This document shows, piece after piece, positions 408-32,044 of a stretch of 33,199 nucleotides of DNA. This DNA comes from a virus, in IMG/VR virus record IMGVR_UViG_3300037862_000061, positions 1 to 33,199 of that record, one strand, 5' to 3'. Position numbers and translations under genes: made by a program. Every line of letters starts with the position of its first letter. Within the stretch, counting starts at the first letter, position 1. Under the pieces are notes generated by a model. That model saw nothing but the letters and a program-made list of their open reading frames with translations, was not told where the DNA came from and ran no database searches.

Positions 408-484
408 AATTATCTTATATCAAATTTTCCTCTATGTGGGTTACTTAAATGAAAAAATACATTGTATCTTATTGCGTCGATTGC
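1..484. repeat. Left copy of the near-identical terminal repeat
   Basis: Bases 1-484 align without gaps to 32716-33199. I count about 21 substitutions, all within the first 360 bases; the last ~125 bases are identical. The copy covers the 5' part of the tail-chaperone gene and the 3' end of the large terminase gene. The simplest reading is a circular or terminally redundant phage map of about 32.7 kb, with the two contig ends taken from two strains of the same phage. Confidence 0.9.
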
Positions 485-1621: not shown

Positions 1622-1862
1622 ATAAATCTTTTATACTAAAATCATTAACCTCGTGCGTGTTGTGTTGGTCAATTACTTGCTTAGGCATACCAAAGTTATA
1701 CTGAAAGAATAATTTAACCGCCCAGTCTTTACCATCTTCTAGCGCTGATTTTAGTGCAGAAAAAGCCAGAGGTTCAAGTGGTGTTAATTTTTCAATTAAA
1801 CTTTGTTCTTCTGCTTTGCTCTTTCGACCTGCGTTTTCTCTTGCTCCTCCAGCCTTACCCAT
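1590..1862 (-). CDS. terS: Terminase small subunit (putative)
   Basis: The 90-residue product lies directly upstream of, and overlaps, terL, which is the usual place for the DNA-recognition subunit of the packaging terminase. It starts with a basic, Gly-rich segment (GKAGGARENAGRKSK) like those of many small terminase proteins, followed by helical sequence. It is short for the family, and no clear helix-turn-helix can be defined by eye. The call rests mainly on position and on the basic N-terminus. It is read from the same late transcript as the tRNA-Trp gene just upstream. Confidence 0.7.
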   Translation of the reverse strand: MGKAGGARENAGRKSKAEEQSLIEKLTPLEPLAFSALKSALEDGKDWAVKLFFQYNFGMPKQVIDQHNTHEVNDFSIKDLYDSQTKTDLE

Positions 1863-1907: not shown

Positions 1908-1980
1908 CATACGGTGTAGGAATCGAACCTACCCACTCGGTGTTGGAGACCAAGTCGCCTACCTTTGAACATTACCGCAT
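1908..1980 (-). tRNA. tRNA-Trp (anticodon CCA), divergent
   Basis: The 73-nt sequence folds as a cloverleaf. The acceptor stem is ATGCGGT/ACCGTAT (one G-U), the T arm is GTAGG-TTCGATT-CCTAC, and the anticodon arm is TTGGT-CTCCAAC-ACCGA with anticodon CCA at 1944-1946. The discriminator is G and no 3' CCA is encoded. The D stem is weak, built mostly of G-U pairs. The gene stands between a late-promoter motif and terS, so it is probably transcribed at the 5' end of the terminase mRNA. A host-derived tRNA or a drifting phage tRNA are both possible. Confidence 0.85.
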
Positions 1981-2008: not shown

Positions 2009-2036
2009 ATAACGACGAATATTTAATATTGTAACT
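2009..2036 (-). promoter_or_regulatory. Late-promoter motif, copy 1 (tRNA/terminase unit)
   Basis: On the minus strand this reads GTTACA, 15 nt, CGTT(A). It matches the motif at three other operon starts (31956-31981, 23658-23683, 20886-20911) with exactly the same spacing. The last T of the CGTTT half is replaced by A, so this is the weakest copy. It lies 30 nt upstream of the tRNA-Trp gene, unlike the other copies, which lie 7 nt from an ATG. Confidence 0.55.
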
Positions 2037-2083: not shown

Positions 2084-2500
2084 TCAAGGCTTTTTATTTG
2101 CTTTTATCTTTGCTTTCTTCTCTATTCTACTAACTGTCATAAAATTTATCTTATAGCGCCTTTCTATTTCCCTTAACGAGTTGTCGTATCTAAGTATTAA
2201 TATCTTACGCTCTTTCCAAGTTAAGCAATCGGGAACTTTATAAATAGTATCTTGTTCTTCTTCTTCGGTCGCTAGGTTTGCGCTTAGTTCGCAGTGCATA
2301 CGTTTGTTTTCTGCCTTTAACCAATCAAGCCAAACAGACTTTAAAGTGAAGTAAATATAAAAATCGTTTAGTTCTTTGTCGTAGTCTTTTAGCTTAAGAT
2401 ACATTTCGCTTACTATGTCGTCTGCTAAAAATTGGTCTTTGCAAATACCTCTAGCCATCTTTACCCACAAATCGTGTTTTAAACAAAGAATTTCTAACAT
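2084..2500 (-). CDS. RNA polymerase sigma-70-like factor
   Basis: The 138-residue product resembles small sigma-70 family proteins. A region-2-like helical segment (LADDIVSEMYLKL, near residues 25-37) is followed by an aromatic-rich stretch (IYFTLKSVWLDWL). A C-terminal region-4-like helix-turn-helix (LTWKERKILILRYDN...REIERRYKINFMTVSRIEKKA) ends the protein. It is shorter than ECF sigma factors (about 170-190 residues), so it may act as a partial sigma or an activator. It lies just upstream of the late terminase unit and is a natural candidate for recognising the repeated late motif. That link is inference only. Confidence 0.65.
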   Translation of the reverse strand: MLEILCLKHDLWVKMARGICKDQFLADDIVSEMYLKLKDYDKELNDFYIYFTLKSVWLDWLKAENKRMHCELSANLATEEEEQDTIYKVPDCLTWKERKILILRYDNSLREIERRYKINFMTVSRIEKKAKIKANKKP

Positions 2501-2520: not shown

Positions 2521-2528
2521 CAAATATA
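2521..2528 (-). promoter_or_regulatory. Candidate -7 box upstream of the sigma-like gene
   Basis: The minus strand reads TATATTTG, a match to the Bacteroidetes TAnnTTTG box, 20 nt before the ATG at 2500 and downstream of the gene that starts at 2798. The extended TATTGTTTAA -33 element seen at other early promoters is absent, so this promoter would belong to a different class or be weak. Confidence 0.45.
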
Positions 2529-11660: not shown

Positions 11661-11693
11661 CAAAGATAACTATTTATAATTAATTAAACAATA
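11661..11693 (-). promoter_or_regulatory. Early promoter for erf-ssb unit
   Basis: The minus strand reads ATTGTTTAA, 15 nt, TATCTTTG. Both boxes match the early family, with one extra base in the spacer. It lies 21 nt upstream of the erf ATG, in the gap after the gene ending at 11700. Confidence 0.75.
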
Positions 11694-18864: not shown

Positions 18865-20562
18865 CTAGTTAAATCTTTTGTTTGATGGTAAAAATCCATT
18901 GAAAGGCATATCTTTTGGCGCTGTATAAACTAATTTATCATTTGCTGGCAATATTTCGCCCTCTTTTCTTGCTTGTGCTGGCGTTATTTTCTCTGCTAAA
19001 GGACTGTTTACGTCTGATTTTAGCCTATAAGTTTCTCGAATCCAAGAATGATGGCAGCCTCCACCGCCTTTATAAAAAAACAAATCGTAATTATCAACAC
19101 CTTTTGGGCCCCAACCAGGATTTACTGCTAACTTACTCATTCTGTCTATGTCTTGCTTACGATATAACTTGTTTGCGCCTACCATTTTACTGCAAAACTC
19201 TCTACTATTAGCATTCAAACCACTACTATATCTGTAACGGCTCTTAAATAGCTTACCATCTTGCTTTGGGTTTGTAGTTGTATCTTTTGCGTTAGGGTTT
19301 GCCGTTCCAGTGCTTGCAAATTGTATGTTATGACCCGCTATAATCTTGTCTAGTTCGTCTTCGTACTCATACTCAACTTTTCTACTATCTACTAAATCAT
19401 AACCTTGCAAATCACTGTCTAAACTATCTAAAATCTCATCTAGTGTTGACTTTTTTTTTTCTTCGCTTAGTTGCGTTGGCATTAGTGTATCTTGCACCTC
19501 TGAAAGAGGTTTAAAGTAAAAATCAAAAGCCATATTATTAAATGAAATTATCTCATCAATAGCTTCTATAATCGGAAATTGTTTTGGCGCAATAACGCGC
19601 TTTAAAAGTTGTGATTCTGCTTCGTCAAGTTCGTTTGCGTTATTCCCTAACCCAGTATTGTACTTTATACCCGCTAACATTGGAGAAGTTAAAAAATGCC
19701 CCGTCATTATTTGTTGGCGTGCCTCATTGCTTAAAAACTCCCATTGCTTGTGCATCGATTCATTAACAGGAAATGCTGTAATAGTAATTTCAGAGTCTTT
19801 ACTAGCAAAATTTAAAACAAATTTACCAGCGTTAGGCGAACCCGTTAATTTAGCTTTTATTTGACGTTCAAAACTATCTTTTTCTTCTGCCGTTAACGTT
19901 TGACCGTCTGGCACGTTTATAAGATAACCAGCTGATAATCCGTTAAGCAAAAAGTTATTATAAAAGTTACTTATTTCTTCTTCTATATTTGCGTATTGTA
20001 ATGCGGGCAAGTAATCAGGGTCTGTAAAGTAATTTTTACCCGCGGAATATGGTTTTATACAATATATTTCCGATTCATCGTTAGAGGTACCAAACGCACT
20101 AAACTGTTCAGCTAATTTTGGTTTGCTCCAATCCTTATTATAAAAATAGTGTTCTATTTCCCCCTCCTCATTTTCTAAACTAGGAACTACATACTGCTTA
20201 GGTAGATGAAATATACCCGTTACTTTTTTACGGTCTTTTGATTTAATAACTTGTACACTAGCCTCACCGAATAGTTGAAAGTCGCTAACTATTTTACGTA
20301 AATCTTTACTATTTAAAATAGTTTTAAAATTTGCCCATTCAGTTGGCTTGCTACTTGCATTTTTAGCAAACAAGCCTTGTCCGTAAATCAAATGTGTGTA
20401 TGCTGTTATAATAGAATGGTTTGTTACGCTTCCGTTAAACCTATCTATAATGTATTGGTAGAAACTATTGTTAACGCCGTTTAAAACCCAGTTTTTAGAT
20501 TTATTTTCTTGCAATACGGGTTTAACGTAGTTGTTTAATTGAATTAGTTTTATTTCGCTCAT
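18865..20562 (-). CDS. Portal protein with C-terminal MuF-like domain
   Basis: The 565-residue product has the mixed alpha/beta body of SPP1/PBSX-type portals. Features include an N-terminal YQYIIDRFNGSVTNHSII, FQLFGEASVQVI, a central LNGLSAGYLINVPDG, and a helical stem region near SPMLAGIKYNTGLGNNANELDEAESQ. The portal forms the ring through which DNA enters and leaves. The last ~125 residues (from about 440) carry SREFCSKM and GGGGCHHSWIRETYR, resembling the cysteine/histidine end of MuF-type minor head proteins, so the gene looks like a portal-MuF fusion. No separate MuF gene is visible. Confidence 0.85.
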   Translation of the reverse strand: MSEIKLIQLNNYVKPVLQENKSKNWVLNGVNNSFYQYIIDRFNGSVTNHSIITAYTHLIYGQGLFAKNASSKPTEWANFKTILNSKDLRKIVSDFQLFGEASVQVIKSKDRKKVTGIFHLPKQYVVPSLENEEGEIEHYFYNKDWSKPKLAEQFSAFGTSNDESEIYCIKPYSAGKNYFTDPDYLPALQYANIEEEISNFYNNFLLNGLSAGYLINVPDGQTLTAEEKDSFERQIKAKLTGSPNAGKFVLNFASKDSEITITAFPVNESMHKQWEFLSNEARQQIMTGHFLTSPMLAGIKYNTGLGNNANELDEAESQLLKRVIAPKQFPIIEAIDEIISFNNMAFDFYFKPLSEVQDTLMPTQLSEEKKKSTLDEILDSLDSDLQGYDLVDSRKVEYEYEDELDKIIAGHNIQFASTGTANPNAKDTTTNPKQDGKLFKSRYRYSSGLNANSREFCSKMVGANKLYRKQDIDRMSKLAVNPGWGPKGVDNYDLFFYKGGGGCHHSWIRETYRLKSDVNSPLAEKITPAQARKEGEILPANDKLVYTAPKDMPFNGFLPSNKRFN

Positions 20563-20563: not shown

Positions 20564-20878
20564 TTAAAAAGTAAAAATATCTTTAGTAATTTTGTATTCT
20601 TGCGTTTCGTTTGACTGGTCTGTTACAAATAGTTTACCTCTATAAATTATTTCGTTTGTAGATTCCTCAAATACTGTTATTTGGTAATTTGAGGAATTTA
20701 TAAACGATTGACTAAAAGCAATATACATATAACCGTCAACCGTTAATTGATTTGTGGTATATTCTAAAAACTCGTTATTTTCTTCGTTTTGTAATCTTAA
20801 TAAAATACTGCCGTCAATATACTTTCTAGGTATTATAACTATTTCGTGATTGACCGCTAAAGGCGAAAGTATTTTCAT
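20564..20878 (-). CDS. Small virion-associated protein, 104 aa
   Basis: This first gene of late unit 4 lies 1 nt upstream of the portal gene and 7 nt downstream of the late-promoter motif. The product is beta-rich (HEIVIIPRKYIDGSILLRLQNEE..., YQITVFEESTNEIIYRGKLFV), like small structural or decoration proteins. The family is not recognised. Its ATG would lie at or within a few bases of the transcript 5' end if the motif is a promoter. Confidence 0.6.
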   Translation of the reverse strand: MKILSPLAVNHEIVIIPRKYIDGSILLRLQNEENNEFLEYTTNQLTVDGYMYIAFSQSFINSSNYQITVFEESTNEIIYRGKLFVTDQSNETQEYKITKDIFTF

Positions 20879-20885: not shown

Positions 20886-20911
20886 AAACGATAAAATAGT
20901 GATTTTGTAAC
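20886..20911 (-). promoter_or_regulatory. Late-promoter motif, copy 4 (portal-lysis unit)
   Basis: The minus strand reads GTTACA, 15 nt, CGTTTA, and the CGTTT ends exactly 7 nt before the ATG at 20878. CTTTT precedes GTTACA, as in the copy at 31956-31981. A terminator lies directly upstream (20919-20951), so this unit needs its own start. Confidence 0.75.
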
Positions 20912-20918
20912 AAAAGCA

Positions 20919-20951
20919 AAAAACCCGCTAGTTATAAATTAGCGGGTTTTT
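20919..20951. terminator. Bidirectional terminator between late units 3 and 4
   Basis: AAACCCGCTA and TAGCGGGTTT pair perfectly around a 9-nt loop, with T-runs following on both strands. It ends the protease-capsid unit 18 nt after the stop at 20969. The next late motif begins 7 nt further on. Confidence 0.9.
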
Positions 20952-20968
20952 AACAATAAAAATAAAAA

Positions 20969-21487
20969 TTAAGTAGTAGGATTTACTACCGCTAAAAATG
21001 CTGTAATAGTCGCGCTATCTAGCAAAGGCGCTAATTCTGTTTCAATAGAAGTACCTGTTAAGTTATAACCGTTGAAGTCTGCTTTTGCGCCCCCCGTAGT
21101 TGGTGCAACTAAGAAGTCGATTCCTTCTTTCAAACCTACTAAATGATAGTTTCCAGCTTTGTCTTGAACAACCGCTTTAGGGTATCCATAGGCTAATAAA
21201 TTCAATTGGTGGTTGTCCTCTTTAGTTGTTTTTGGCAAAACTAAAGTTAATGTTTGGGTGTTTGTAGTTGTACCCGCGTTTCTGTCAGATGCTAATGATT
21301 GAGCAAAAATGTTTCCATCGCCTATTAGATCATATTGAAATACGTCTACTAAAAGAGGATTCATTGCCGTAGCCACGCCGTTTAAAACTGTAAAAGGATT
21401 TTCAATGTCGTTAAATAGATACACCTTTGAAGTACCCGCTATGGCATTTTTGCACTGCTTTTTACGACCGTTCGTTATATCGCACAT
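20969..21487 (-). CDS. Structural protein of the capsid unit, 172 aa
   Basis: The product begins MCDITNGRKKQCKNAIAGTSKVYL and is beta-rich, with LTLVLPKTTKEDN and AVVQDKAGNYHLVGLKEG. It has a paralogue at 17758-18312. The gene follows the major capsid gene and stands between two terminators, so it probably shares the high expression of the capsid unit. A major tail-tube or head-decoration protein would fit this level and size. I cannot choose between them from the sequence. Confidence 0.65.
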   Translation of the reverse strand: MCDITNGRKKQCKNAIAGTSKVYLFNDIENPFTVLNGVATAMNPLLVDVFQYDLIGDGNIFAQSLASDRNAGTTTNTQTLTLVLPKTTKEDNHQLNLLAYGYPKAVVQDKAGNYHLVGLKEGIDFLVAPTTGGAKADFNGYNLTGTSIETELAPLLDSATITAFLAVVNPTT

Positions 21488-21502
21488 ATATTATTTTGTG
21501 TT

Positions 21503-21527
21503 AAAAAAGGGAGTTTTTACGCTCCCC
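21503..21527 (-). terminator. Terminator after the major capsid gene
   Basis: GGGAG and CTCCC form a 5-bp stem around an 8-nt loop, followed by six T on the minus strand. It sits in the 49-nt gap after the capsid gene. The short stem suggests partial termination, which would lower, not abolish, expression of the gene at 20969-21487. Confidence 0.65.
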
Positions 21528-21536
21528 TTAGATTAA

Positions 21537-22535
21537 TTATACGTATAAAACATTAAATTTCTGATTTACTACGTGCGCAAAGATTGTAAAGATAACATCA
21601 TAGAAGTAGTCTTTTCTTGGTGCTGGGTATGGAGCAATTTGAATGTCAGAATAGTCGTCTAACAAGTCAGTACACCACATGAAATTCATAGGTACACCAG
21701 CTAACATTACGTTAGGCGCTAAAGGTACAAATACAATTTCTACGTCTAAGTAAAAATATTTGTTAGTAGCTAAATCTACTGTGAAAGTATCTCTAAAATC
21801 TTGCGCTTTGTTAAAATTGTTAATTAATTTTTTAACGCTTCTTGATGCATAAATATAAGGCTTGTCGTTGCCAGATAAAACTTCGTCAGGGATTGCGTTG
21901 TAAATTTTACCAACTTCTGCCCCAATATTTGCAGAATCTAAAACCGTACCGCCTACTTTAATTCTCTTTCCTACTGCACCTTTGTTGTAAATGATTTTAG
22001 TAGTTAATGAATCAAACAATGTAGTTGGCATTGCAGCGACTAACGCTTTTTCATTTGCGGAAACTTGTGTTTGTAAAGCCCCAGCGGTTAGTAAAGCTAC
22101 TGCCGTTTTTGTTGATGCCAAAGCACCATTCCAATACTTGTTTTCTGAATCGTTTGAAATTAAAGGTGCTACACCATTTAAAACCAATCTGTTAAATTCA
22201 TCTGATACATCGTTAATTGCACCAGGTGCCATATCTCTATTGAATCTAGTGCTTCTTAAATCGTCTGGAGTAAATTTGTCGATATACTCAACTTTTACAG
22301 GAAATACTGTTGTATCTTCTAAACCAATACTACCAGCTTCCGATCCCGTTGGGTTAACGCTCCAAGGTTGCATTGTTACCGAATTAATATTTTCAGTAAT
22401 TACGCGACCAGCTTTAATGCCGGTTTCAAACATTACCAAACCATCTTCAACGGTTGCGTTTCTAAATAAAATTTCAGCGATAATGTCCGCTTTAAAATCT
22501 GTTGGGATTACTGCTCCCGTGTATGCTATTGCCAT
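21537..22535 (-). CDS. Major capsid protein
   Basis: The 332-residue product has the size and composition of an HK97-fold capsid subunit and follows the protease/scaffold gene after 11 nt. Typical features are an N-terminal helical part (PTDFKADIIAEILFRNATVEDG), a long extended E-loop-like stretch (VTMQPWSVNPTGSEAGS...), and LRSTRFNRDMAPGAINDVSDEFNRLV. A beta-rich A-domain end (YFYLDVEIVFVPLAPNVMLAGVPMNFMWCTD) completes it. No separate cleavage site can be placed with certainty. It is the centre of late unit 3. Confidence 0.85.
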   Translation of the reverse strand: MAIAYTGAVIPTDFKADIIAEILFRNATVEDGLVMFETGIKAGRVITENINSVTMQPWSVNPTGSEAGSIGLEDTTVFPVKVEYIDKFTPDDLRSTRFNRDMAPGAINDVSDEFNRLVLNGVAPLISNDSENKYWNGALASTKTAVALLTAGALQTQVSANEKALVAAMPTTLFDSLTTKIIYNKGAVGKRIKVGGTVLDSANIGAEVGKIYNAIPDEVLSGNDKPYIYASRSVKKLINNFNKAQDFRDTFTVDLATNKYFYLDVEIVFVPLAPNVMLAGVPMNFMWCTDLLDDYSDIQIAPYPAPRKDYFYDVIFTIFAHVVNQKFNVLYV

Positions 22536-22546
22536 ATTATATAAAT

Positions 22547-23650
22547 TTAGTTAAATTTGTTTTTGTGTTCAATGAATTTCTGGTATGCCGTTTGCGCTCC
22601 TAATTGCGTAGGTACTGCCACCTTTGGTTTTGTTGCTGGTTGTGCGCTTAAAGCAACTATTTCAGCTTTCAAAGTTACGTTTGCATCTGTAACCGCCTTT
22701 AACTTTGCGTTAAATTCTTCTGCGTATTTAATCATAATTGATTTAATCGCATTTTCAACCGCCGTTGCTTGGTCTGTTGCGCTTGGTACATTTGGCTCTG
22801 AAAGTGGCGCATCTACATTTTCTTCTGCTGGTGCTTCCATTGCTTTCATCGAACCAATTTTACCTTCTTCTGTAACTGACAAAATCATACCATCCTCTAA
22901 CTCGTAATCGCCAACTGGCAAAGGAACTTGTGTGCCATCTTCTGCAACAACGAAAACTGCACCGCCTTCCATCATCATATCGCCCTCGTATTCGATAACC
23001 ACCGAACCGTCCGCGCTTTTTACACTACCTAGTTTAATATCTACTTTCGGCTTTAATGCCAAAGCAATACTAGTAGGTAGGTTTTTCAACATCTCAATTA
23101 TTTCTACACTCATATTTATTTCCGATTTTAAATTTACTTCTTCTAGTGATAGCATTGCGTCAATACTAAAACCTTTTACTTTGCCCGTCTTAACAAACTC
23201 ACTCCAAACATTATCGTTGTCAACTTTCATAGTTGCAATCCAACTACCTTTAGGATAGCTTAACCCTAACGCGTTTGATTTATCATTTTTGCTATCTTCT
23301 ACTATCCAACTTTCAACAAAGGTAACACCTTCGATTTTTTGGCTTTCGTCGTGTTCTATTGTGCTATTCTTTTGGTGGTTATTTTTAAAAAAACCGTAAG
23401 ATAATTCTTTAATGGTATTTTCTGAAAATGTTATATTGAACTCCTCACCGTTTTGATTTCGATAAATTGGCTTGTTTGGCTCTAACACTAAACCAACTAA
23501 AATACGTTGCTCGCTATCTATTTCTTTAAGTTGCAAAGACTGCCCTTTTAATGCTATGAAGTCGCCCTCCATCGCTGGATTAAGCACAAGCGAAACCGCA
23601 AAAACTCCTTTATTTTCTTCTGGATTATAAAAAGCCTCGTATGTCTTCAT
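22547..23650 (-). CDS. Prohead protease (XkdF-like) fused to scaffold domain
   Basis: The 367-residue product has an N-terminal serine-protease domain like the XkdF family: YRNQNGEEFNITFSENTIKEL, NSTIEHDE with probable catalytic H100, VESWIVEDSKND, PKGSWIATMKV, and VKGFSIDAML with probable nucleophile S162. The C-terminal part (about 190-367) is Ala/Glu/Lys-rich with low-complexity and coiled-coil stretches, as in scaffolds that are digested during head maturation. It begins 7 nt after a late-promoter motif and precedes the capsid gene. Confidence 0.8.
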   Translation of the reverse strand: MKTYEAFYNPEENKGVFAVSLVLNPAMEGDFIALKGQSLQLKEIDSEQRILVGLVLEPNKPIYRNQNGEEFNITFSENTIKELSYGFFKNNHQKNSTIEHDESQKIEGVTFVESWIVEDSKNDKSNALGLSYPKGSWIATMKVDNDNVWSEFVKTGKVKGFSIDAMLSLEEVNLKSEINMSVEIIEMLKNLPTSIALALKPKVDIKLGSVKSADGSVVIEYEGDMMMEGGAVFVVAEDGTQVPLPVGDYELEDGMILSVTEEGKIGSMKAMEAPAEENVDAPLSEPNVPSATDQATAVENAIKSIMIKYAEEFNAKLKAVTDANVTLKAEIVALSAQPATKPKVAVPTQLGAQTAYQKFIEHKNKFN

Positions 23651-23657
23651 AATTTAT

Positions 23658-23683
23658 AAACGTAATTAATGTTAAATTGTAAC
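23658..23683 (-). promoter_or_regulatory. Late-promoter motif, copy 3 (protease-capsid unit)
   Basis: The minus strand reads GTTACA, 15 nt, CGTTTA, ending exactly 7 nt before the ATG at 23650. It lies back to back with the plus-strand early promoter at 23705-23736, so the two families diverge from this 75-bp gap. Confidence 0.75.
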
Positions 23684-23704
23684 ATAAAAAGATTTACATA
23701 AAAG

Positions 23705-23736
23705 TATTGTTTAATTAAAAAATAGTTATATCTTTG
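23705..23736 (+). promoter_or_regulatory. Plus-strand early promoter for the inserted cassette
   Basis: The plus strand reads TATTGTTTAA (preceded by AG), 14 nt, TATCTTTG, the full early-family signature. It lies 18 nt upstream of the ATG at 23755. It shows that the reversed two-gene cassette carries its own early control. Confidence 0.85.
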
Positions 23737-23754
23737 TAGAAACAAATAGAAATT

Positions 23755-24354
23755 ATGATAAACCAAAAGATAAATAAAATAAAAGATATAATAAAAAAAT
23801 GCACTAGTTGTAATTTAGAATTTCCTAAAACAGATGAATATTTTTTTGCTAAAATAACAAAACAACAAACTAAAAACGGATTAGCAATTTATCATTCTTT
23901 CAGGGCAATTTGTAAAAAATGTAATGGAAAAAAAGGAGAAGAAAATAGGTTAAAAAAAAGATGCAAAGAAATGAATTGCGATGTTTCTCAATATAGAGAA
24001 AATTGGAAAAAACAATATTCAGAAACAAGAACTATTATAAAAGAAATTTCACATTTACCAAAAGGAGTTCAAAGTGTGATTAGAACAAAAATAAAAAACG
24101 GTTATGTTTTTACAACTTACGAAAAATACAGAATTGACTGTAGAAAAAATTTAAGCAAAAGTCATAGAAAATATGATTATGGAGATTTAGATTTTGTACC
24201 AAAAGGAACTCAAACAGGAATTAAGCATTTAACCGATGCTTATATTGCTTTATGTTTAAAAGCAAAAGTAAAAGAAGTTCCTAAAGAAATGCTAGAATTT
24301 AAGCGATTAACAATACAAATAAAAAGAGAATTAGAAAACCAAAAAACAATTTAA
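23755..24354 (+). CDS. Zinc-finger phage protein (HNH-like accessory), plus-strand cassette
   Basis: The 199-residue product has two zinc-ligand pairs, C16-x2-C19 (KKCTSCN) and C53-x2-C56 (AICKKCN), around FPKTDEYFF. A basic helical middle follows, and then a C-terminal LTDAYIALCLKAK...VPKEMLEFKRLTIQIKREL. This architecture recurs in phage proteins often annotated as HNH endonuclease-like, but the HNH catalytic residues are not evident. It is one of only two genes read on the plus strand, between the tape-measure and protease genes, so it looks like an inserted moron. Base composition is even more A-rich than its neighbours. Confidence 0.65.
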   Translation: MINQKINKIKDIIKKCTSCNLEFPKTDEYFFAKITKQQTKNGLAIYHSFRAICKKCNGKKGEENRLKKRCKEMNCDVSQYRENWKKQYSETRTIIKEISHLPKGVQSVIRTKIKNGYVFTTYEKYRIDCRKNLSKSHRKYDYGDLDFVPKGTQTGIKHLTDAYIALCLKAKVKEVPKEMLEFKRLTIQIKRELENQKTI

Positions 24355-24365
24355 AAACAAAAATT

Positions 24366-24590
24366 ATGGAAACTAAAAGAGATTTAAATTTTGAAGTAAA
24401 CAACGCAAAGCAATTAAATGAAATGCTTACTGGCGTATTGATGGATTGCAGACGCGGAATTATTGACCACGAAACAGTAAAAAGTATCACACTTGTTGCT
24501 GATAAAATAAATAAGAATAATGTTAATATTTTGGAGTATAAAAAAATTACCAAAAATAAAAATGATGTTGAGTTTTTCGATGGCATTTAG
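24366..24590 (+). CDS. Small protein of the plus-strand cassette, 74 aa
   Basis: The product has NNAKQLNEMLTGVLMDCRRGIIDHETVKSITLVADKINKNNVNI, a pattern shared with short helical phage proteins (KDLxxLL...L.xGKIDxxxAxxIxxxAxxI) that often neighbour HNH-like genes. No activity is known. It begins 12 nt after the zinc-finger gene with AAATTATG and ends just before the bidirectional terminator, so the two make one complete transcription unit. Confidence 0.7.
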   Translation: METKRDLNFEVNNAKQLNEMLTGVLMDCRRGIIDHETVKSITLVADKINKNNVNILEYKKITKNKNDVEFFDGI

Positions 24591-24606
24591 TAAACGATTT
24601 TAAAAC

Positions 24607-24637
24607 AAAACCCGATAACATTACGCTATCGGGTTTT
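24607..24637. terminator. Bidirectional terminator between cassette and tape-measure unit
   Basis: AAAACCCGATA and TATCGGGTTTT pair perfectly (11 bp) around a 9-nt loop, with T-rich runs on both strands. It ends the plus-strand cassette and, in the other direction, the tail unit right after the tape-measure stop at 24641. Confidence 0.92.
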
Positions 24638-24640
24638 TTA

Positions 24641-26362
24641 TTAAAATTTACTATTTGATATTATATTACGCTCTAACGCTTGAGCGGTGGTAACATTTGA
24701 ACTAACAACATACGCTTGTATTGGTTGGTTTTGACCTCCTAAACTAGACGCTATTTGATTTGCTCCCGTTCCTTGAACTAAATTAAAAGACGGTGCAGAT
24801 GGTGCGGGTGGTGCAGATTGACCTCCTCCAGATTGACCTCCTCCAGAATCTCCTCCTCCTCCGCTTAATAGTTTTTTAGCTCTCGAAATATTACTAATAA
24901 CAGATAGTGCAGTTCCAGTGTAAGAAATAACCCTTGCAACTGTCCCGATTCCCGGCACTAGAGGGAATGCTAATTGAGCGGCTACTCCTTCTGCATTAGC
25001 TAATGTAGAGGCTTTACTTATTGCGACGGCACTATCTATTCCTATTTGAGTTAACGCTATAGATTTAGATATTGCTTGTCCCGCTTTGCTTTTGTTTATC
25101 CCTAAAAGCTCTAAATTATTTATAATTCCAGAAAGGTTTTGTCTTGAAGTCGCTATCGCTGTATCTTTATTTCTTTGAAATTCTAACTCCTCTGCTGCTG
25201 CCTTATCTCTTTTTGCTTTTGCGTCCGCATCCCTTTTTATAGCGTTTTCAGATTCTTTTATAAAATAATCTAGGTCTTCTTTTTCTTTTTCGACTTTTAA
25301 TTTATCTTGAATTTCTTTTTTATTTCTAGCAAATTGCGCTTCTAGTTCTACTGTTGAAACATTATTATCTACTAATATTTTTCTTTCTTGCTCAAACTTT
25401 GCCGTTAGATTTTGTAACGCAGTTCTTGTTTTTTGCAAGTTATCTTCTCTCGCATCGTCCTCAATTTTATTTGCTTTCTCTAAAGCGGATTTTCTTGCGT
25501 CCTCAATTGCTTTTCTTTTTGCTTTTGCTATTGCATCTGCTTTCTCTTGTAATGCCTTTCTTTTTTCATTTATAGATTTATTGTCGGAATCTATTTTATC
25601 TTGAGCGTCTTTGTTATCTTTTACTTTTTTATCGTTTCTCTCTTTGTCTATAGCAATTAAATCTCTGTTTAATCTTTTAGCTAATTCATTTCTTTTTTCG
25701 TCGCTAATTCCTTCCTCTTGCGTTGCTTTTAAATATCTGTTTTTAGCCTCTACTTTTTTCTTACTAAAGTCATCTAATAGGTCGCCTCTAGTTTGCATAT
25801 AATCTTCGTTTTGCTTTAAAGATTTTTTTGCTTGTTCATTAAACCTATCTAATTCTCTTTCAGCTTCCGAAGTTATACCTATAAAATCAGTAACCGCATT
25901 AGATACCGTTCTAAAGAAATCGCCAACTAATTTAAGCCCGGGCAAAAACTTTGTAACAGCATCTGTTATTTTTCCAAAGTTCAAAACTAAAGAAACTAAC
26001 GCTAAAATAATTAAACCTATACCAGTACCAGCTAGAGCAAGTTTAAAAAGTTTCATTGCTCCCGTAGATGTGCCAACAACAAAACTGTAGGCAGATTGTA
26101 AAGCGGTTGCAAGTTTAGATTCTTTAGAAAACAATCCAAGTGCCTCTACTGAATCTAAAGCTACTTGTGCGTAACCACCCGTAACAGCGTTTAGTAAACC
26201 CATTGCACTGCCGTTTTCCAAAACCGATACTGAACTTTCTTTCATTCCTTTTGCAACTCCTGACGTGCTTTTTTTCAAGGTGTTTAAAGAATTATCTAGC
26301 TTGTCAATCTTACGGTTTGCGTCGCCTGTATCTGCTACAACTTTTATTACTTCGGTTATCAT
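24641..26362 (-). CDS. Tape-measure protein
   Basis: The 573-residue product sets tail length and later takes part in DNA ejection. It has a helical N-terminus, a hydrophobic segment near residues 107-128 (KLALAGTGIGLIILALVSLVLNFG) and a very long charged coiled-coil region (about 165-400). A second hydrophobic part lies near 440-490, then a Gly/Ser/Gln/Pro-rich linker (GGGGDSGGGQSGGGQSAPPAPS). The tail QPIQAYVVSSNVTTAQALERN is typical of Bacteroidetes tape measures. At about 1.5 Å per residue it predicts a tail near 85 nm. Confidence 0.9.
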   Translation of the reverse strand: MITEVIKVVADTGDANRKIDKLDNSLNTLKKSTSGVAKGMKESSVSVLENGSAMGLLNAVTGGYAQVALDSVEALGLFSKESKLATALQSAYSFVVGTSTGAMKLFKLALAGTGIGLIILALVSLVLNFGKITDAVTKFLPGLKLVGDFFRTVSNAVTDFIGITSEAERELDRFNEQAKKSLKQNEDYMQTRGDLLDDFSKKKVEAKNRYLKATQEEGISDEKRNELAKRLNRDLIAIDKERNDKKVKDNKDAQDKIDSDNKSINEKRKALQEKADAIAKAKRKAIEDARKSALEKANKIEDDAREDNLQKTRTALQNLTAKFEQERKILVDNNVSTVELEAQFARNKKEIQDKLKVEKEKEDLDYFIKESENAIKRDADAKAKRDKAAAEELEFQRNKDTAIATSRQNLSGIINNLELLGINKSKAGQAISKSIALTQIGIDSAVAISKASTLANAEGVAAQLAFPLVPGIGTVARVISYTGTALSVISNISRAKKLLSGGGGDSGGGQSGGGQSAPPAPSAPSFNLVQGTGANQIASSLGGQNQPIQAYVVSSNVTTAQALERNIISNSKF

Positions 26363-26511
26363 TTGTATATTTCTTTATAACTGCGTTTAATTTGTTCCTT
26401 TGCTTTTTTCCAACTTTTTATTGTTGCAAATTTTCCCTTTGCTATTTCAATACATTCGCCACCGTTATAGTATGGCAACATATTGCACAATTTTATAATT
26501 TCTAGTATCAT
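26359..26511 (-). CDS. Small protein upstream of tape measure, 50 aa
   Basis: This frame (MILEIIKLCNMLPYYNGGECIEIAKGK...) is linked to both neighbours by four-base ATGA overlaps: its ATG with the TGA of 26508-27086 and its TGA with the tape-measure ATG. The product is basic with three Cys or Met-rich turns and an aromatic KSWKKAKEQIKRSYKEIYK tail. The slot just before the tape measure often holds tail chaperones, but the chaperone pair is already recognised at 32371-33122. Its role is unknown. Confidence 0.65.
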   Translation of the reverse strand: MILEIIKLCNMLPYYNGGECIEIAKGKFATIKSWKKAKEQIKRSYKEIYK

Positions 26512-27086
26512 AATGCTTTGTATACTCTTACTATTTGGTAACTTATATTATAAATACTCGTGTTACCCGTTAAACTCAATATTTTTGGTAAACCTCCATT
26601 TGGCACAAAAGTATTTAACGAATACATAGGCGCTACAATTGAAAAAGATTGTTCGGAATTTGCGCCTTTTGCAAATACTTTAGTTTCTTTAAATTGTTGC
26701 GCCAAAGCAACCGAACCTAAATCCATAAAAAAATCAAACACACCGCTTGCGTTACTATTTTTAGCATTAAATCTTATAGTAGTTATGTAATAGTCTCCTA
26801 TATTTTGCGGTGTTATTTTGCTAGTTAAGGAATTATAAAGATTAACAACCCCGATAGGTAGATAGGTATTTAATACCGTACCCGCGTTATTTTGTATAAT
26901 AGACGTTACACCTTGATTAATTACAAAAGGCGACGCTTCGGTATATTGCGTGTCTGTATAAACAGCAAACCCTTGGTCACTGTACAAGTCTGCGAAATTT
27001 TCATTTGTCTTATCAAAACCTACTCTTAAAGAGTCTCCTGTTCCGTCGTTAGGTGTTGCCCCTATTCCTATCGTTTGCTGTGCCAT
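26508..27086 (-). CDS. Virion structural protein with GDG-type N-terminal motif
   Basis: The 192-residue product starts MAQQTIGIGATPNDGTGDSL...GFDKTNENFADLY. I recognise this motif from the N-termini of many phage tail-fibre and baseplate proteins (PNDGTGDxLRxxxxKxNxNFxxLY), where it mediates attachment. The rest is beta-rich (YYITTIRFNAKN, GVFDFFMDLGS, YNISYQIVRVYKAL), like a small jelly-roll domain. A tail-tip or fibre protein is likely. It lies between the large tail protein and the tape measure. Confidence 0.7.
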   Translation of the reverse strand: MAQQTIGIGATPNDGTGDSLRVGFDKTNENFADLYSDQGFAVYTDTQYTEASPFVINQGVTSIIQNNAGTVLNTYLPIGVVNLYNSLTSKITPQNIGDYYITTIRFNAKNSNASGVFDFFMDLGSVALAQQFKETKVFAKGANSEQSFSIVAPMYSLNTFVPNGGLPKILSLTGNTSIYNISYQIVRVYKAL

Positions 27087-27088
27087 AA

Positions 27089-29446
27089 TTATTGCGCGTC
27101 TATTGTTAATATATTGTTATCTGCCGTTACTTCCGTACTATCTGCTGTTACTATTTTGTTATCTTGATTTACGTATAATTGAAACGATTTTCCCGCCCCA
27201 TTATTTACGTTTATAAACGCATCTCGATTTAATGTTAAAGTATTTTCTGTAAATGTAATATCTATAAAATTACCGTTTTTAATAGCTGTTATAAATGTAG
27301 TGCCAAACCCTAAATTTTGAATTGATATATTCATTACGCTTGCATTACTAACATATACGCTAGTTGTTTGCGCTAAATAGTTTACGTAAATTTCTTTACT
27401 TGTTGGCAAAAATGAACCAAAATTAGTTTCGAAATTATTTATTAAATTAAATGTTGCGTCACCCGTTAATAGGTTTACATTATAATCGTTTATTCTATAA
27501 TATTTTTTGTTCAATTCCACTATATCGTTTAACTCTATATTTGTCAATAGATAGTTTGGTAATTTAGCTTTGAATTTAAAGTTTCTTTTTTTTATGTTAA
27601 ATAAATTAACGACGTACTTTTGCCAGTAATTAGAATATAAAGTATTATTTATTAAAGCTCCGTTCCAAGTGCTAAACTCGTTACTCCAAATTAAACTATC
27701 GCTAACGTTATCTAATCCTAGAGTATTACTAGGTGTGTTTAAAGTTGAGTTTAAAGGCGTTTGTAATCTAAGCATTTTAACTTTTGTCGTACCTAATTGA
27801 ACTACATTATTATAAAATAAAATAGGCTTAGGCACTACTTGGTTGCCAGACAAATCTCGACTTAAACCGTACTGAATATTTACTAAATTATTTGTATTTA
27901 CATCTTTTAATCTTTCAAATAATAATGTTTCAAAAGGTAACTCAACACTTATCACATCACCGTCTAATGGCTTTAATTCAGTATCTTTTAAAGTCAATAA
28001 ACTATCGCCGTATGCAACTATATTATTTTGCTTAAATTGTTGGTTTAGGATAGTCGTAGGCGGTTGAAATTTAAAATCTATTTGCCTTGCTAAAGTCCCT
28101 CGTTCTGCATCGTAATTTTTTATATCAAAATGCTTTGTTAAGTTGACTACTTTGCCACTTAAATAATAATCGTTAGCGGTGTTTAAATAGATAGTACCGT
28201 TTCTTTGTGGAATAGCTACCAATTTGAATATCTTAAACAACCCACTTAAAAATTCTATTATCTTTAATTTAGGTAAGTTTGCTGATACGTTTACAAGTGC
28301 CTCGCTACCTTGCGAAATACCTCCGCTTGTTTCTTCTGGCGTTGGTACCCAACTTGAGCCGTTCCAACTTTCAGACCTACACACAACTGTTGCAGAATCA
28401 ATTGGTATATTTATTTGAAACTGATATTTATTGTTTACTAAATCGTTTGTGTTAATTGTAAATTCTCTCTCAAAAGTTGGTGTTTGGTCCTGTATTAAAG
28501 CAACCTGTACTCCATTGTTAAATATAGCAAAATCGATAGGTAAAGTATCATTGTCATTGTTTATAATTGGGTTTAATATTGTTATTTTAAAGTAAAATCT
28601 TTTTTTATCATTTGCGCTATTTACAAAGGTTGTAAAGTTTAGACTGTCGGTTGCTAAATTCATAAACGTACCGCCACCTGTTGTGAAGTTTATAAATGAA
28701 GTTCGTAGTATTTTGTTTACGGTGTTATTACAGGCCCACATATAAGCCTCTTTAAACTCTGTTCTATTTGTAAATTCATTACTAAAAGTCAAACCATACT
28801 TAGTGCTAATCGCTTCTAGTATTTTTGATATTCTAACAGATGGGAACAAATCCAAGTCATCTACGCCCTCGCCAAATGGTTTAGTTGTACCCACATTTGT
28901 CGTTAACAATTGTAAAGGATTGCTATAATTTGGTGTTGAATTATAAAAAAATTGCTTTCTAGTATTCATTAAATTATAAACTATATCTCTATCAAACAAG
29001 CCTTGCTCCAATCCTATCTGAATACTTTGAACACTCGGAGAATGATCCAACGCTTGCAAGTCTAAAGAGGTTAGTTCATCTTCGCCTATTAAGTCTTTTA
29101 TATTAACTAAATCACCAAAAAAATTAATTGTATAATTTGCGGGTTTGCCATCTTTAACGCTAACTTTTTCTAATCTAAATTTACCTATTCTAAAAGGGAA
29201 ACCTGATATTTTAATTTCTCCTTTAACCTTAGTTCGTGCATCAAAAGTATTGTCTATATCCGCATCGTAATAATGTTTGAATAAAAAATTATTTCGATCG
29301 CTTGCTGGTACCGTAAAACTTTTAGTAAAGTCAGTATTGATTTTAGTTATATCGTCGGTGTTTGCAACCGAACTATTAAAATCAATATTTTCGTCTTTAG
29401 ATAAATCAACCTTTGTATTTCCTATAAATATTTCTGTAACCATCAT
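27089..29446 (-). CDS. Large tail / baseplate-like protein, 785 aa
   Basis: This is the largest gene. The product is beta-rich throughout. Its N-terminus (EIFIGNTKVDLSKDENIDFNSS...TKSFTVPASDRNNFLFKHYY) and KVKGEIKISGFPFRIGKFRLEKV match what I recall from long tail-tip proteins of Bacteroidetes phages. A middle part has IIEFLSGLFKIFKLVAIPQRNG. The C-terminal ~90 residues (VNYLAQTTSVYVSNASVMNIS...) look like an Ig-like or BACON-like domain that could contact glycans. A distal-tail or tail-hub role is likely. Its start overlaps the upstream stop (ATGA). Confidence 0.7.
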   Translation of the reverse strand: MMVTEIFIGNTKVDLSKDENIDFNSSVANTDDITKINTDFTKSFTVPASDRNNFLFKHYYDADIDNTFDARTKVKGEIKISGFPFRIGKFRLEKVSVKDGKPANYTINFFGDLVNIKDLIGEDELTSLDLQALDHSPSVQSIQIGLEQGLFDRDIVYNLMNTRKQFFYNSTPNYSNPLQLLTTNVGTTKPFGEGVDDLDLFPSVRISKILEAISTKYGLTFSNEFTNRTEFKEAYMWACNNTVNKILRTSFINFTTGGGTFMNLATDSLNFTTFVNSANDKKRFYFKITILNPIINNDNDTLPIDFAIFNNGVQVALIQDQTPTFEREFTINTNDLVNNKYQFQINIPIDSATVVCRSESWNGSSWVPTPEETSGGISQGSEALVNVSANLPKLKIIEFLSGLFKIFKLVAIPQRNGTIYLNTANDYYLSGKVVNLTKHFDIKNYDAERGTLARQIDFKFQPPTTILNQQFKQNNIVAYGDSLLTLKDTELKPLDGDVISVELPFETLLFERLKDVNTNNLVNIQYGLSRDLSGNQVVPKPILFYNNVVQLGTTKVKMLRLQTPLNSTLNTPSNTLGLDNVSDSLIWSNEFSTWNGALINNTLYSNYWQKYVVNLFNIKKRNFKFKAKLPNYLLTNIELNDIVELNKKYYRINDYNVNLLTGDATFNLINNFETNFGSFLPTSKEIYVNYLAQTTSVYVSNASVMNISIQNLGFGTTFITAIKNGNFIDITFTENTLTLNRDAFINVNNGAGKSFQLYVNQDNKIVTADSTEVTADNNILTIDAQ

Positions 29447-30009
29447 ACATTGTTAATATCGTTAAACGCGTACTCAAATTCCAAACTATAATTTATCAAT
29501 CTGTCATTTTGTCTAGTCTTAAATTCTTGGCTCTTGCTAGATACGCTAATTGGTATAGCTTGTCCACCCTCTAACACCCAAACTTTTTCACTAAGTAATA
29601 ATTGCTTAACTGCTTCATTTTTATCTTCGGTTACAAAGCCGCTATTAATTGTAAATTTGCTCCTAGATTGTACGTTAAACGTGTTAAATTGATGCTTACC
29701 TAAAGGCGCGCCACCCTCGAAACTATCGGCAGTTACCGAAATGGTATCTTTACGAACTTTAAACATAGTGAATATCTGACTTGCGCCCTCTTTATTTTGA
29801 AAAACTATATCAATTGGCGTGTATCTACATTCATCCGTTATTAACAAAGTCTTAACTATTCCGTTATAAGTGATTTCTACGTACTCATCGGTGGTGGTTT
29901 GGCTTAAATCTACCCATAAATATTTAATTAACTCACCGCTAAACGTTGAACTAGGCGTTTGAATAGTGTAATTTATCTCTCCAAGTGGATAACTGCGTAC
30001 TGCGATCAT
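29443..30009 (-). CDS. Tail protein, 188 aa
   Basis: The product is beta-rich (LGEINYTIQTPSSTFSGELIKYLWVDL..., EVEITYNG-like YVEITYNGIVKTLLITDECRYTPIDI) with a C-terminal RLINYSLEFEYAFND segment. I do not recognise a named family. It sits between the 144-aa and 785-aa tail genes and is coupled to the latter by an ATGA overlap. It may be a tail-tip or distal-tail component. Confidence 0.6.
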   Translation of the reverse strand: MIAVRSYPLGEINYTIQTPSSTFSGELIKYLWVDLSQTTTDEYVEITYNGIVKTLLITDECRYTPIDIVFQNKEGASQIFTMFKVRKDTISVTADSFEGGAPLGKHQFNTFNVQSRSKFTINSGFVTEDKNEAVKQLLLSEKVWVLEGGQAIPISVSSKSQEFKTRQNDRLINYSLEFEYAFNDINNV

Positions 30010-30011
30010 AA

Positions 30012-30446
30012 TTAAAAGGGTAAAAGTGCATAGTCGAATGATATATTTTGTACTTCTGAGTCTACTTCTCTTAAGGCCAACTTAAAAGAAGTGCTTGTTT
30101 TTTCTCTGATGCTAAAAATTACGTCATTGTTTGCTCCAAAAACTCCCGAAACGTGAACTAACGAACCTAACACTTCGTATTGGTCAGTTCCCACATTTGG
30201 AAATGTAACGGTTTTAAGTACGTCAGAGCCTCCAACATCACCAATATAATAATTTGCTATTCTTAAGAAAGGACTTGCTGCTGGTGCTGCTTGTATTGCG
30301 TTAATTTGTGTTTGCAAACTAGCGACCTCTTGTGCTATAAAATCCAATATAGCAGTTTCAACTACTCTATGTTCAGTCGCTGTTATATCGCTTTGACTTG
30401 CTAAATTCAAATCTATAATTGCTTGTACTTCTGCTTGTGTTGCCAT
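30012..30446 (-). CDS. Putative tail or fibre protein, 144 aa
   Basis: The first ~55 residues form a helical, Ala/Gln-rich segment with heptad spacing (IAQEVASLQTQINAIQAAPAA), likely a trimeric coiled coil. A compact beta domain follows (KTVTFPNVGTDQYEVLGSLVHVSG..., VIFSIREKTSTSFKLALREVD). A stalk plus a beta tip is typical of small fibre or spike proteins. It follows the 175-aa tail gene after 4 nt. Confidence 0.6.
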   Translation of the reverse strand: MATQAEVQAIIDLNLASQSDITATEHRVVETAILDFIAQEVASLQTQINAIQAAPAASPFLRIANYYIGDVGGSDVLKTVTFPNVGTDQYEVLGSLVHVSGVFGANNDVIFSIREKTSTSFKLALREVDSEVQNISFDYALLPF

Positions 30447-30450
30447 AATA

Positions 30451-30978
30451 TTAAACTATAAAATAATCGATTGTGTAGTCGTCTGCATTGTAATCTGGTA
30501 TAATAGATTGCTCTACTTTGATTGGCAAAATAAATAAGCCGTTTCTGTCTACCTTATATTCGTCTTGTGTTACTAATATTTTGTTAGTTGGTATAGTTGG
30601 ATTTGCACCATCTTGAAAATAACCATAACCTTTTATTGCTAGGTTTGTTTGTTGCAATTGTATTACCTTTGGTTCTACATCGTAGATAACATGGAATCGA
30701 ACCCAAGCTTGGTTGTCGCTATCGTATAAACCCGCAAAAGTTGGTATAGTAATGTCAAAGTCTATAAAGTCATTCACTATTCTTCCAATCTCAACTCTAT
30801 CAATTGCGTTTGAGCCAGTTGGGTTAAACCTTGTTTTTTGATACGAGGACTGACTAGGTACTGCCGTTATGTTACCTTGCCAAATGAATATCTGCACCGT
30901 GTAAGAAGTGCAAACAAGCGAATTGCTAGGACTTGTTAACGGAATATCAATATAGTATGGCGATAGTGTTTTAATCAT
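30451..30978 (-). CDS. Tail protein, 175 aa
   Basis: The product is beta-rich (SYTVQIFIWQGNITAVPSQSSYQKTRF..., WVRFHVIYDVEPKVIQLQQTNLAIKGYGYF). It resembles small Ig-like or tail-tube-type proteins in character, but I cannot name a family. Its start overlaps the end of the HK97-gp10-like gene by 4 nt. It is part of the tail unit that leads to the tape measure. Since no other clear tail-tube gene exists in this unit, it is a candidate. Confidence 0.6.
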   Translation of the reverse strand: MIKTLSPYYIDIPLTSPSNSLVCTSYTVQIFIWQGNITAVPSQSSYQKTRFNPTGSNAIDRVEIGRIVNDFIDFDITIPTFAGLYDSDNQAWVRFHVIYDVEPKVIQLQQTNLAIKGYGYFQDGANPTIPTNKILVTQDEYKVDRNGLFILPIKVEQSIIPDYNADDYTIDYFIV

Positions 30979-31496
30979 TTATTATTTTTTAAACTTGTTT
31001 TTAGTAAATCTCTCATATCTAAACCGTAAGCCTCTATTAATTCTTTAGGTAGTCTTCTCATTTCTTTGTTAAAAGCATCTGTTAAAAATCTAGTAGGCTT
31101 TTTACCTTTGTTATAAATTGACCTTGCAATTAATAAAGCTGTTTGTTTGTAGCTTAAAAACTTGCCACTTTTTTCATTTTTAAATTGAAATCTTTTTCTC
31201 CCAACCCAACCTATTAGCGATTTAGTCAAACCACCATTACCACTTCCAAAAGACTTACCGTATTTAAATGGACTGTAAGGAGCTAAAGCATCGCTCTTGA
31301 ATCCTTTTACTCCTTGGTCTACAAAAGAAGCGTAATCTAATGCCTCTAATGTAAATTCAATACTATTCTTTGATACTTTAATATTGTACTTTAAACTATT
31401 TCCTAAATCTCCCGTGTCGCTTTTTCTTGCTATGTTTGCTTTGGCTCTGTTTATTATTTGAGTGCCAAAATTATCTAAGGCTTTTTTAACTAACAT
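30975..31496 (-). CDS. HK97 gp10-like tail-completion / neck protein
   Basis: I take the ATG at 31496, whose TTATG context overlaps the upstream gene's end; an upstream in-frame start would add 16 residues. The 173-residue product has LDNFGTQIINRAKANIARKSDTGDLGNSLKYN and ALDYASFVDQGVKGF (residues 6-80). This is the HK97 gp10 pattern of 'A...AP.dTGnLrnSi... YA.yve.Gt', a protein that helps join head and tail. The C-terminal half is basic and helical. Confidence 0.75.
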   Translation of the reverse strand: MLVKKALDNFGTQIINRAKANIARKSDTGDLGNSLKYNIKVSKNSIEFTLEALDYASFVDQGVKGFKSDALAPYSPFKYGKSFGSGNGGLTKSLIGWVGRKRFQFKNEKSGKFLSYKQTALLIARSIYNKGKKPTRFLTDAFNKEMRRLPKELIEAYGLDMRDLLKTSLKNNK

Positions 31497-31948
31497 AATG
31501 AAACTAAAACGTTCGGCACGTCGATTGTAAATGTCATCACCCAACCATCTAAAAGGTTTTTTTTACTCTCGTTCATCTGTTCGAGAGTAGGATTTTCGCT
31601 TGCGGTTATATCGTTATCCTCGAAGTCTTTAAGCATCAACAACCATAATCTATTTACAACAGCTAAAGTTTCGTTTAGATTATCTATTTCGTTGTCGTTC
31701 TCGTAAAATTTATCTGTTGTTATCTCTTTGTTAATATCTCTTATATCCATCGCACCAATTTGGCAGTCGAATCTTATGACACTATCGCTAGGAAAAGAAC
31801 AGTTACCAATGCTAACATGTAACAAAGGAAATATATTTTTCTTACTAATATCAACGTCTTCAAAATCTCCCTGTGTTATCGTGTTAATAAAATAATCCTG
31901 CTCGGCTAGAGTCTTGATGTATCGTAAAATTTCGCTATATCCGTTCAT
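31490..31948 (-). CDS. Tail terminator-like protein, 152 aa
   Basis: This first gene of late unit 2 begins 7 nt after the late-promoter motif. The product (SEILRYIKTLAEQDYFINTITQGDFEDVDIS...LLHVSIGNCSFPSDSVIRFDCQIGAMDI) has the alpha/beta pattern and size of tail terminators (gpU type): an N-terminal helix, a beta-strand core and a C-terminal strand. It precedes the HK97-gp10-like gene as in many siphoviruses. The assignment is from order and character, not from a diagnostic motif. Confidence 0.6.
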   Translation of the reverse strand: MNGYSEILRYIKTLAEQDYFINTITQGDFEDVDISKKNIFPLLHVSIGNCSFPSDSVIRFDCQIGAMDIRDINKEITTDKFYENDNEIDNLNETLAVVNRLWLLMLKDFEDNDITASENPTLEQMNESKKNLLDGWVMTFTIDVPNVLVSLC

Positions 31949-31955
31949 ATAAGTA

Positions 31956-31981
31956 AAACGATAAGATTGCTAATATGTAAC
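31956..31981 (-). promoter_or_regulatory. Late-promoter motif, copy 2 (tail unit)
   Basis: The minus strand reads GTTACA, 15 nt, CGTTTT, ending exactly 7 nt before the ATG at 31948. CTTTT precedes GTTACA, as at 20886-20911. The terminator of unit 1 lies directly upstream. Confidence 0.75.
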
Positions 31982-31986: not shown

Positions 31987-32012
31987 AAAAAACCCTACTC
32001 GAATGAATAGGG
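31987..32012 (-). terminator. Terminator of the terminase/chaperone unit
   Basis: CCCTATTC and GAGTAGGG pair (8 bp, one G-U) around a 4-nt loop, followed by six T on the minus strand. It lies 33 nt after the stop of the 61-aa gene and abuts the late motif of unit 2. Confidence 0.88.
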
Positions 32013-32044
32013 CAATACTTTATTTAAAAAACTTTTAATTTATT

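Follow-up and report, generated by a model that had tools for sequence, protein, structure and literature searches.

What reads the short two-block sequence that opens the late units of this phage, and what kind of message begins there? The window, meaning the whole 33,199-nt stretch analyzed here (positions 1 to 33,199 of IMG/VR virus record IMGVR_UViG_3300037862_000061), carries GTTACA-N15-CGTTT, or a one-base variant of it, at the starts of its tail, capsid, portal-to-lysis and tRNA-terminase units. A preliminary description had interpreted these copies as late promoters of probably leaderless mRNAs, and had proposed a phage-altered RNA polymerase specificity acting through a changed host -7 box. 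Conservation across many phages, a 7-nt spacing, restriction to AUG and a T(-1)A(+1) step support the late-promoter and leaderless readings, and altered polymerase specificity is likewise supported, but not the proposed mechanism. Taken as a whole, the evidence makes it very probable that the element is the late promoter of a phage-encoded sigma factor of the extracytoplasmic function (ECF) type, which the preliminary description had overlooked.

Candidate Late Promoters in the Window

Pattern scanning for GTTACA-N15-CGTT[T/A] returned exactly four matches, all on the minus strand and none elsewhere in the window; chance expectation was 0.31 with N13-17 spacing, and none of 100 dinucleotide shuffles reached four. 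The putative promoters, and the terminators adjoining two of them, are:

31956..31981, minus strand: late promoter 1, tail unit; -35 block GTTACA at 31976-31981, -10 block CGTTT at 31956-31960, ATG at 31948
23658..23683, minus strand: late promoter 2, head protease/capsid unit; GTTACA-N15-CGTTT, ATG at 23650
20886..20911, minus strand: late promoter 3, portal-to-lysis unit; GTTACA-N15-CGTTT, ATG at 20878
2010..2035, minus strand: late promoter 4, tRNA-terminase unit; GTTACA-N15-CGTTA
31992..32013, minus strand: intrinsic terminator hairpin directly upstream of late promoter 1; its T-run extends to 31987
20921..20950, minus strand: intrinsic terminator, AACCCGCTA...TAGCGGGTT plus T-run, directly upstream of late promoter 3

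These positions agree with those first described, except that the fourth copy starts at 2010 rather than 2011. As had been claimed, exactly 7 nt separate CGTTT from the ATG in the three protein-first copies (open reading frames [ORFs] 31490-31948, 22547-23650 and 20564-20878), and the copies at 31956 and 20886 do stand right after a terminator. Late promoter 4 is separated by 29 nt from a tRNA-Trp, with the terminase genes beyond. Late promoter 1 was kept in all 11 close relatives covering the site, and late promoter 4 was present in 11 of 11, including the four in which the tRNA was undetected (it was detected in the other seven).

A position weight matrix (PWM) trained on other clades only ranked the four window sites 1, 2, 4 and 6. 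The preliminary description had expected such a scan to return only these sites; two in-gene matches intervened, at 12236-12268 and 4032-4064 (both minus strand), the latter with CGAT instead of CGTT. These in-gene sites may be chance matches or internal promoters. PWM strand counts were confounded by gene orientation and were left unused.

Conservation of the Element in Related Phages

Tallied over 174 loci, distances between nnnACA-N14-16-nGTT[T/A] and an ORF's ATG formed a single peak, with 44 cases at 7 nt compared to about 5 elsewhere, and 75 held-out portal loci again gave 44 distances at 7 nt, over a background of about 2.5. In an unbiased scan of 1.1 million combinations of triplet pair, position and spacer, ACA-N16-GTT-N8-ATG ranked first, with 24 observed and 2.66 expected among 3344 non-redundant ATG contexts (P ~2e-15), and the next ranks included shifted views of the same element. 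Duplicate loci had been removed by N-terminus and upstream similarity, leaving some dependence through shared ancestry. A chance origin of the motif was ruled out by the shuffles, the distance peaks in both sets and the unbiased scan. With an AAC-type -35, a CGT-type -10 and a rigid spacer of 16-17 nt, the motif statistics describe the layout of an ECF promoter.

Searches with the portal protein and with the sigma protein encoded at 2084-2500 led to many viral contigs, hundreds of them with the sigma family: a sigma relative is encoded in 411 of the first 600 candidate stretches, and a portal relative in 514 of 600. All five searched records longer than 20 kb in the first portal set carried the sigma gene, as did 13 of 18 viral records in a second set reached through the portal only. 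Of the five records without it, three have no terminase, a fourth starts at the terminase and the fifth (G033) has a different one. G033 (L212/L268) is a 30-kb contig with two unrelated portals and an unrelated terminase, and may be a recombinant or chimeric assembly. The cultured Nonlabens phage P12024S encodes a syntenic sigma homologue, gp33, with 27% identity to the window sigma, and has seven AAAACA-N15/16-CGTTA-N6/7-ATG sites, including those at orthologues of the window's late first genes; the Markov expectation for these sites applies to a loose pattern with N6-8-ATG only. The sigma gene adjoins the terminase unit in the window, in P12024S and in two other genomes (G013 and G022). Candidates lying 6-7 nt from an ATG amounted to 25 of 52 in five sigma-carrying genomes, compared to 3 of 37 in six Bacteroidota phages without sigma (Riemerella phage RAP44, Olleya phage Harreka_1, Flavobacterium phages 6H and FCL-2, Bacteroides phage B124-14 and Polaribacter phage P12002L).

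The preliminary description had suggested scanning related phages for the exact motif and spacing; the architecture and the 7-nt gap recur there, while the bases drift from phage to phage. Close relatives lose the TA before CGTTT (TTTCGTTT), even at 97% identity, and CGTTA, AGTTT and TGTTT serve as -10 variants in others. Pairs of sites within one phage shared their -10 pentamer in 91% of cases (30% when shuffled) and the initial three bases of the -35 in 67% (18% when shuffled; P<=0.0002); P12024S, for example, has AAAACA/CGTTA at all seven sites, the window GTTACA/CGTTT, and a further relative (L034) GCAACA/AGTTT. Such uniformity inside each phage, with differences from one phage to the next, is what a single trans-acting factor per phage would give, which argues against a shared host factor, though hosts differ between phages too.

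In four relatives with about 53% portal identity, the upstream terminator is fused with the promoter, such that the -35 lies in the hairpin loop and the U-tract forms the spacer, followed by GTTT and 6-7 nt to the ATG. These terminator-nested promoters, all upstream of the first gene of the portal unit, are located at:

L026, position 1351
L027, position 1473
L029, position 652
L030, position 4655

A Likely Phage-Encoded Sigma Factor

2084..2500, minus strand: ECF-type sigma factor of the phage (138 aa), with sigma regions 2 (residues ~11-66) and 4 (residues ~92-130)

This ORF closes the early block and lies directly upstream of late promoter 4. It matched the NCBIfam model TIGR02937 (sigma70-ECF) with 44.5 bits against a cut-off of 42.9, and Pfam Sigma70_r4 (3e-5, residues 92-130) and r2 (0.002, residues 12-66) slightly under their cut-offs; TIGR02937 also matched 37 of 38 members of the sigma family at E<=0.01, with some relatives under the cut-off. 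Regions 2 and 4 are the only ones present, regions 1 and 3 being absent, which is the domain content of ECF sigma factors. Among PDB sequences, phmmer gave no informative result for the window sigma, and a comparison of folds was needed. The AlphaFold model, built from the 38-member family alignment, has a mean predicted local distance difference test (pLDDT) score of 75 and consists of two helical domains joined by a low-confidence linker (residues 69-84). ECF sigma factors were its best matches in a Foldseek search against the PDB, with a probability of about 1 and E-values of 0.003-0.1. The sigma-2 domain superposed on 4lup with a root-mean-square deviation of 2.9, and the sigma-4 domain on 8jzt with 1.4, at modest E-values of 0.003-1. 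By E-value, the best fold match in the PDB was 9n9q chain C, from an RNA-guided transcription complex with a release date of December 2025.

The window sigma found no match by tblastn against cultured phages, and since this search missed P12024S gp33, a syntenic homologue annotated as a hypothetical protein with only a note of sigma-70 region 2, searches with sequence alone understate the family. We conclude that ORF 2084-2500 encodes an ECF-type sigma factor that probably reads the motif, and we predict that its product binds core RNA polymerase and initiates transcription.

Host-Type Promoters at Early Genes

The promoter consensus of Flavobacterium johnsoniae is TAHHTTTG, with the start site 4-5 nt after the box (PMC6847099). 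Boxes of this type, found by pattern scanning, precede early genes of the window:

2521..2528, minus strand: host-type -7 box TATATTTG, candidate early promoter of the sigma gene, 20 nt before the ATG
11661..11668, minus strand: host-type box TATCTTTG, 21 nt before the ATG of ORF 11034-11639
23729..23736, plus strand: host-type box TATCTTTG, 18 nt before the ATG of ORF 23755-24354

The distance from host-type box to ATG at early genes is thus 18-21 nt, compared to 7 nt from CGTTT at late genes, and the two promoter types are partitioned: the four exact motif sites all stand at late units, and early genes have host boxes instead. Given the box upstream of ORF 2084-2500, the sigma gene may be transcribed early from a host promoter. 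Five host-type boxes (3809-3816, 8256-8263, 11661-11668, 14392-14399 and, on the plus strand, 23729-23736) share a TATTGTTTA block upstream of TAnnTTTG; in F. johnsoniae a weak -33 motif has been described, which this block apparently exceeds in strength.

Predicted Start of Transcription at the Start Codon

In the open complex of Mycobacterium tuberculosis sigma-H, the -10 GTT occupies positions -11 to -9, leaving 8 nt to +1 (PMC6411747). The phage late promoters likewise consist of GTT, then 8 nt, then the A of ATG, and because the sigma-H register puts +1 on this A, the late mRNAs are predicted to be leaderless. Start codons at 7 nt were ATG in 84 cases, GTG in 2 and TTG in 4, with enrichment for ATG only. 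The base at -1 was T before 89% of the motif-linked ATGs and never G, compared to 43% T, 41% A and 11% G at 1696 control starts from the same loci. Start sites usually favor a pyrimidine at -1 followed by a purine at +1, and the T(-1)A(+1) step, as an initiator signature, fits a transcription start at the AUG. We predict, by this analogy, that late mRNAs start at the AUG or a few bases from it; the alternative register that goes with the host-box reading of the preliminary description, with a start 4-5 nt after the box, would give a leader of 2-3 nt, nearly leaderless even so. Late promoter 4 is predicted to be the one non-leaderless copy, with +1 at 2002 by the same register and a tRNA leader of about 21 nt. 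Since 87% of transcripts in F. johnsoniae, which belongs to the likely host phylum, have leaders longer than 10 nt (PMC6847099), the lack of a leader would here be a trait of the phage's late class.

Weighing the Explanations

The model that we favor would operate as follows. Host RNA polymerase with its housekeeping sigma would transcribe early genes from TAHHTTTG promoters into leadered mRNAs; the phage sigma, made early, would displace the housekeeping sigma on the core enzyme and recognize the -35 (xxAACA/GTTACA) and -10 (CGTT) blocks; and late transcription would begin on the A of the AUG. In every late unit that opens with a protein gene, that gene would thus be translated from a leaderless mRNA; the tRNA-terminase unit, driven by a promoter of this same kind, would carry a short tRNA leader.

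Several observations weigh against this model. Sigma region 4 is weakly recognized in most of the family (Pfam r4 in 3 of 38 members), and G033 has the motif and a terminase with no recognizable sigma. The two in-gene sites of the window equal the weaker real promoters in PWM score, about 10-20% of sites lie 6 nt from the ATG instead of 7, and the 16-nt spacer dominates here, whereas the optimum for sigma-H is 17. Sigma and motif are linked by their co-occurrence, by the promoter layout, by agreement within each phage and by the motif's absence from phages that lack the sigma, not by contact.

That link is drawn from sequence, Flavobacteriia are rich in ECF sigma factors and the host genomes that we reached show several matches, all of which would suit a late promoter read by a host ECF sigma, or by a host housekeeping polymerase retuned by some other phage protein, with the phage sigma serving otherwise. 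We consider this unlikely, since a promoter variant that is uniform within a phage and differs between phages (0.91 compared to 0.30) fits a phage-borne reader, the motif at such spacing is absent from the six sigma-less Bacteroidota phages, and the sigma gene sits beside the terminase unit in four genomes, P12024S, G013, G022 and the window. Still less probable is the reading as a host -7 box (TAnnTTTG) whose core has changed, with a 2-3 nt leader on the mRNA. This reading draws on TATCGTTT or TTACGTTT in the window copies, on TTG before the spacer in two of them, and on host start sites 4-5 nt past the box (PMC6847099). We rejected it because the TA is unconserved while the ECF blocks are conserved: TA and TTG are lost even in 97%-identical relatives, an AAC/TAC block foreign to host promoters is kept at a fixed N16 from CGT, and genuine host boxes coexist at early genes. 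Assignment to the housekeeping-promoter class (TA and TTTG at -12 to -5) also failed, as the late copies are without TTTG and their TA is unconserved.

A third reading, in which the motif is a translation-initiation or other RNA element within mRNAs begun further upstream, was rejected on the tRNA copy and the terminator-nested copies and appears to us very improbable. The fourth window copy precedes a tRNA, with no ATG at such spacing, and is kept where the tRNA is undetected; other copies follow terminators directly or are nested within them, where the loop holds the -35 and the U-tract ends in the -10; and both the ECF spacing and the T(-1)A(+1) step fit transcription. These points outweigh the very tight distance to the ATG and the AT-rich bases before it, which recall a Kozak-like preference in F. 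johnsoniae.

Late Units and Other Features of the Window

The late units opened by the four candidate promoters contain the following genes:

31490..31948, minus strand: first gene of the tail unit, orthologue of P12024S gp41 MNGYYLLLEYIKEL; predicted leaderless
22547..23650, minus strand: head maturation protease (Pfam XkdF, PF14550), first gene of the capsid unit; predicted leaderless
20564..20878, minus strand: first gene of the portal unit, 104 aa; predicted leaderless
18865..20562, minus strand: portal protein (phrog_33693), second gene of the portal unit, used as the query for finding relatives
1908..1980, minus strand: tRNA-Trp (CCA), first product of the terminase unit
410..1862, minus strand: terminase unit, with the large subunit at 410-1621 (PF04466) and a 90-aa protein at 1590-1862

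Orthologues of ORF 20564-20878 in relatives have the motif at the same place. A family search with the 90-aa protein gave no match; by its position, it would be the terminase small subunit. A pair of paralogous proteins is divided between different late units, at 17758-18312 (MKEITNGRNKQCKNAVGG...) and 20969-21487 (MCDITNGRKKQCKNAIAG...). The ends of the window, 1-484 and 32716-33199, overlap by 484 bp with 95.7% identity, which makes it probable that the window represents a circular or permuted genome of about 32.7 kb, assembled from a mixed population.

Implications and Comparison with Known Systems

It is possible, though we hold it with somewhat less than even confidence, that infection by this large, mostly uncultured phage group switches the mode of translation along with transcription, from leadered early mRNAs of the host sigma to leaderless late mRNAs of the phage sigma as a class. 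Late proteins would then be initiated AUG-first (70S-type), which may free them from controls on leadered host mRNAs or from the shut-off of these, and terminator, promoter and start codon would coincide in one element of about 50 nt in some members. This raises the question of leaderless translation in a phylum without Shine-Dalgarno signals, whose own mRNAs are mostly leadered. The favored model would also provide a concrete and testable account of late-gene regulation for hundreds of Bacteroidota phages, mostly uncultured, in which no such control was known, and dozens of natural sigma/promoter pairs with drifted specificity, of use in studies of how ECF sigma factors read DNA and as orthogonal promoters for Bacteroidota. 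A late promoter abutting the start codon seems to be undescribed for Bacteroidota phages of this group: we found no report of the sigma/promoter regulon in the open-access literature, the only kind searched, and the word Bacteroidetes is absent from the main text of a survey of phage sigma factors (PMC9429907).

Phage sigma factors that switch on late genes include T4 gp55 and SPO1 gp28. In phages 7-11 and phiEco32, early genes are served by host promoters and structural genes by promoters of a phage sigma (PMC4331800). The window phage resembles these four systems in that a small, divergent, early sigma would redirect host core polymerase to structural-gene promoters, and differs from them in the ECF type of the sigma, the Bacteroidota hosts and a promoter abutting the start codon; the phiEco32 consensus is, moreover, a single block, TAATGTATA, whereas that of the window phage has two blocks, AAC...CGT.

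Among bacterial ECF sigma factors, Bacillus subtilis sigma-W, Escherichia coli sigma-E and M. tuberculosis sigma-H likewise use an AAC-type -35 and a CGT/GTT-type -10, which for sigma-W is CGTA. ECF promoters have two short, stringent blocks and a fixed spacer of 16-17 nt, and sigma-H starts transcription 8 nt after GTT (PMC6411747, PMC6713349). Here, by contrast, the sigma is phage-borne, its regulon would be the phage late genes, and the AUG spacing leaves no leader. No anti-sigma factor turned up in the window phage, where none was sought. The leaderless genes of Deinococcus-Thermus and mycobacteria are similar to the late units in having a -10 fixed a few nt before the ATG and in requiring AUG (PMC12340547), and the leaderless starts of Sinorhizobium meliloti are all AUG (PMC3616915); the difference is that the likely host phylum here, represented by F. 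johnsoniae, is mostly leadered (PMC6847099). The cultured Nonlabens phages P12024S and P12024L (Inhavirus) share with the window phage a sigma gene (gp33) beside the terminase and several motif sites at orthologous late genes, and differ in another promoter variant, with the portal 40% and the sigma 27% identical to those of the window.

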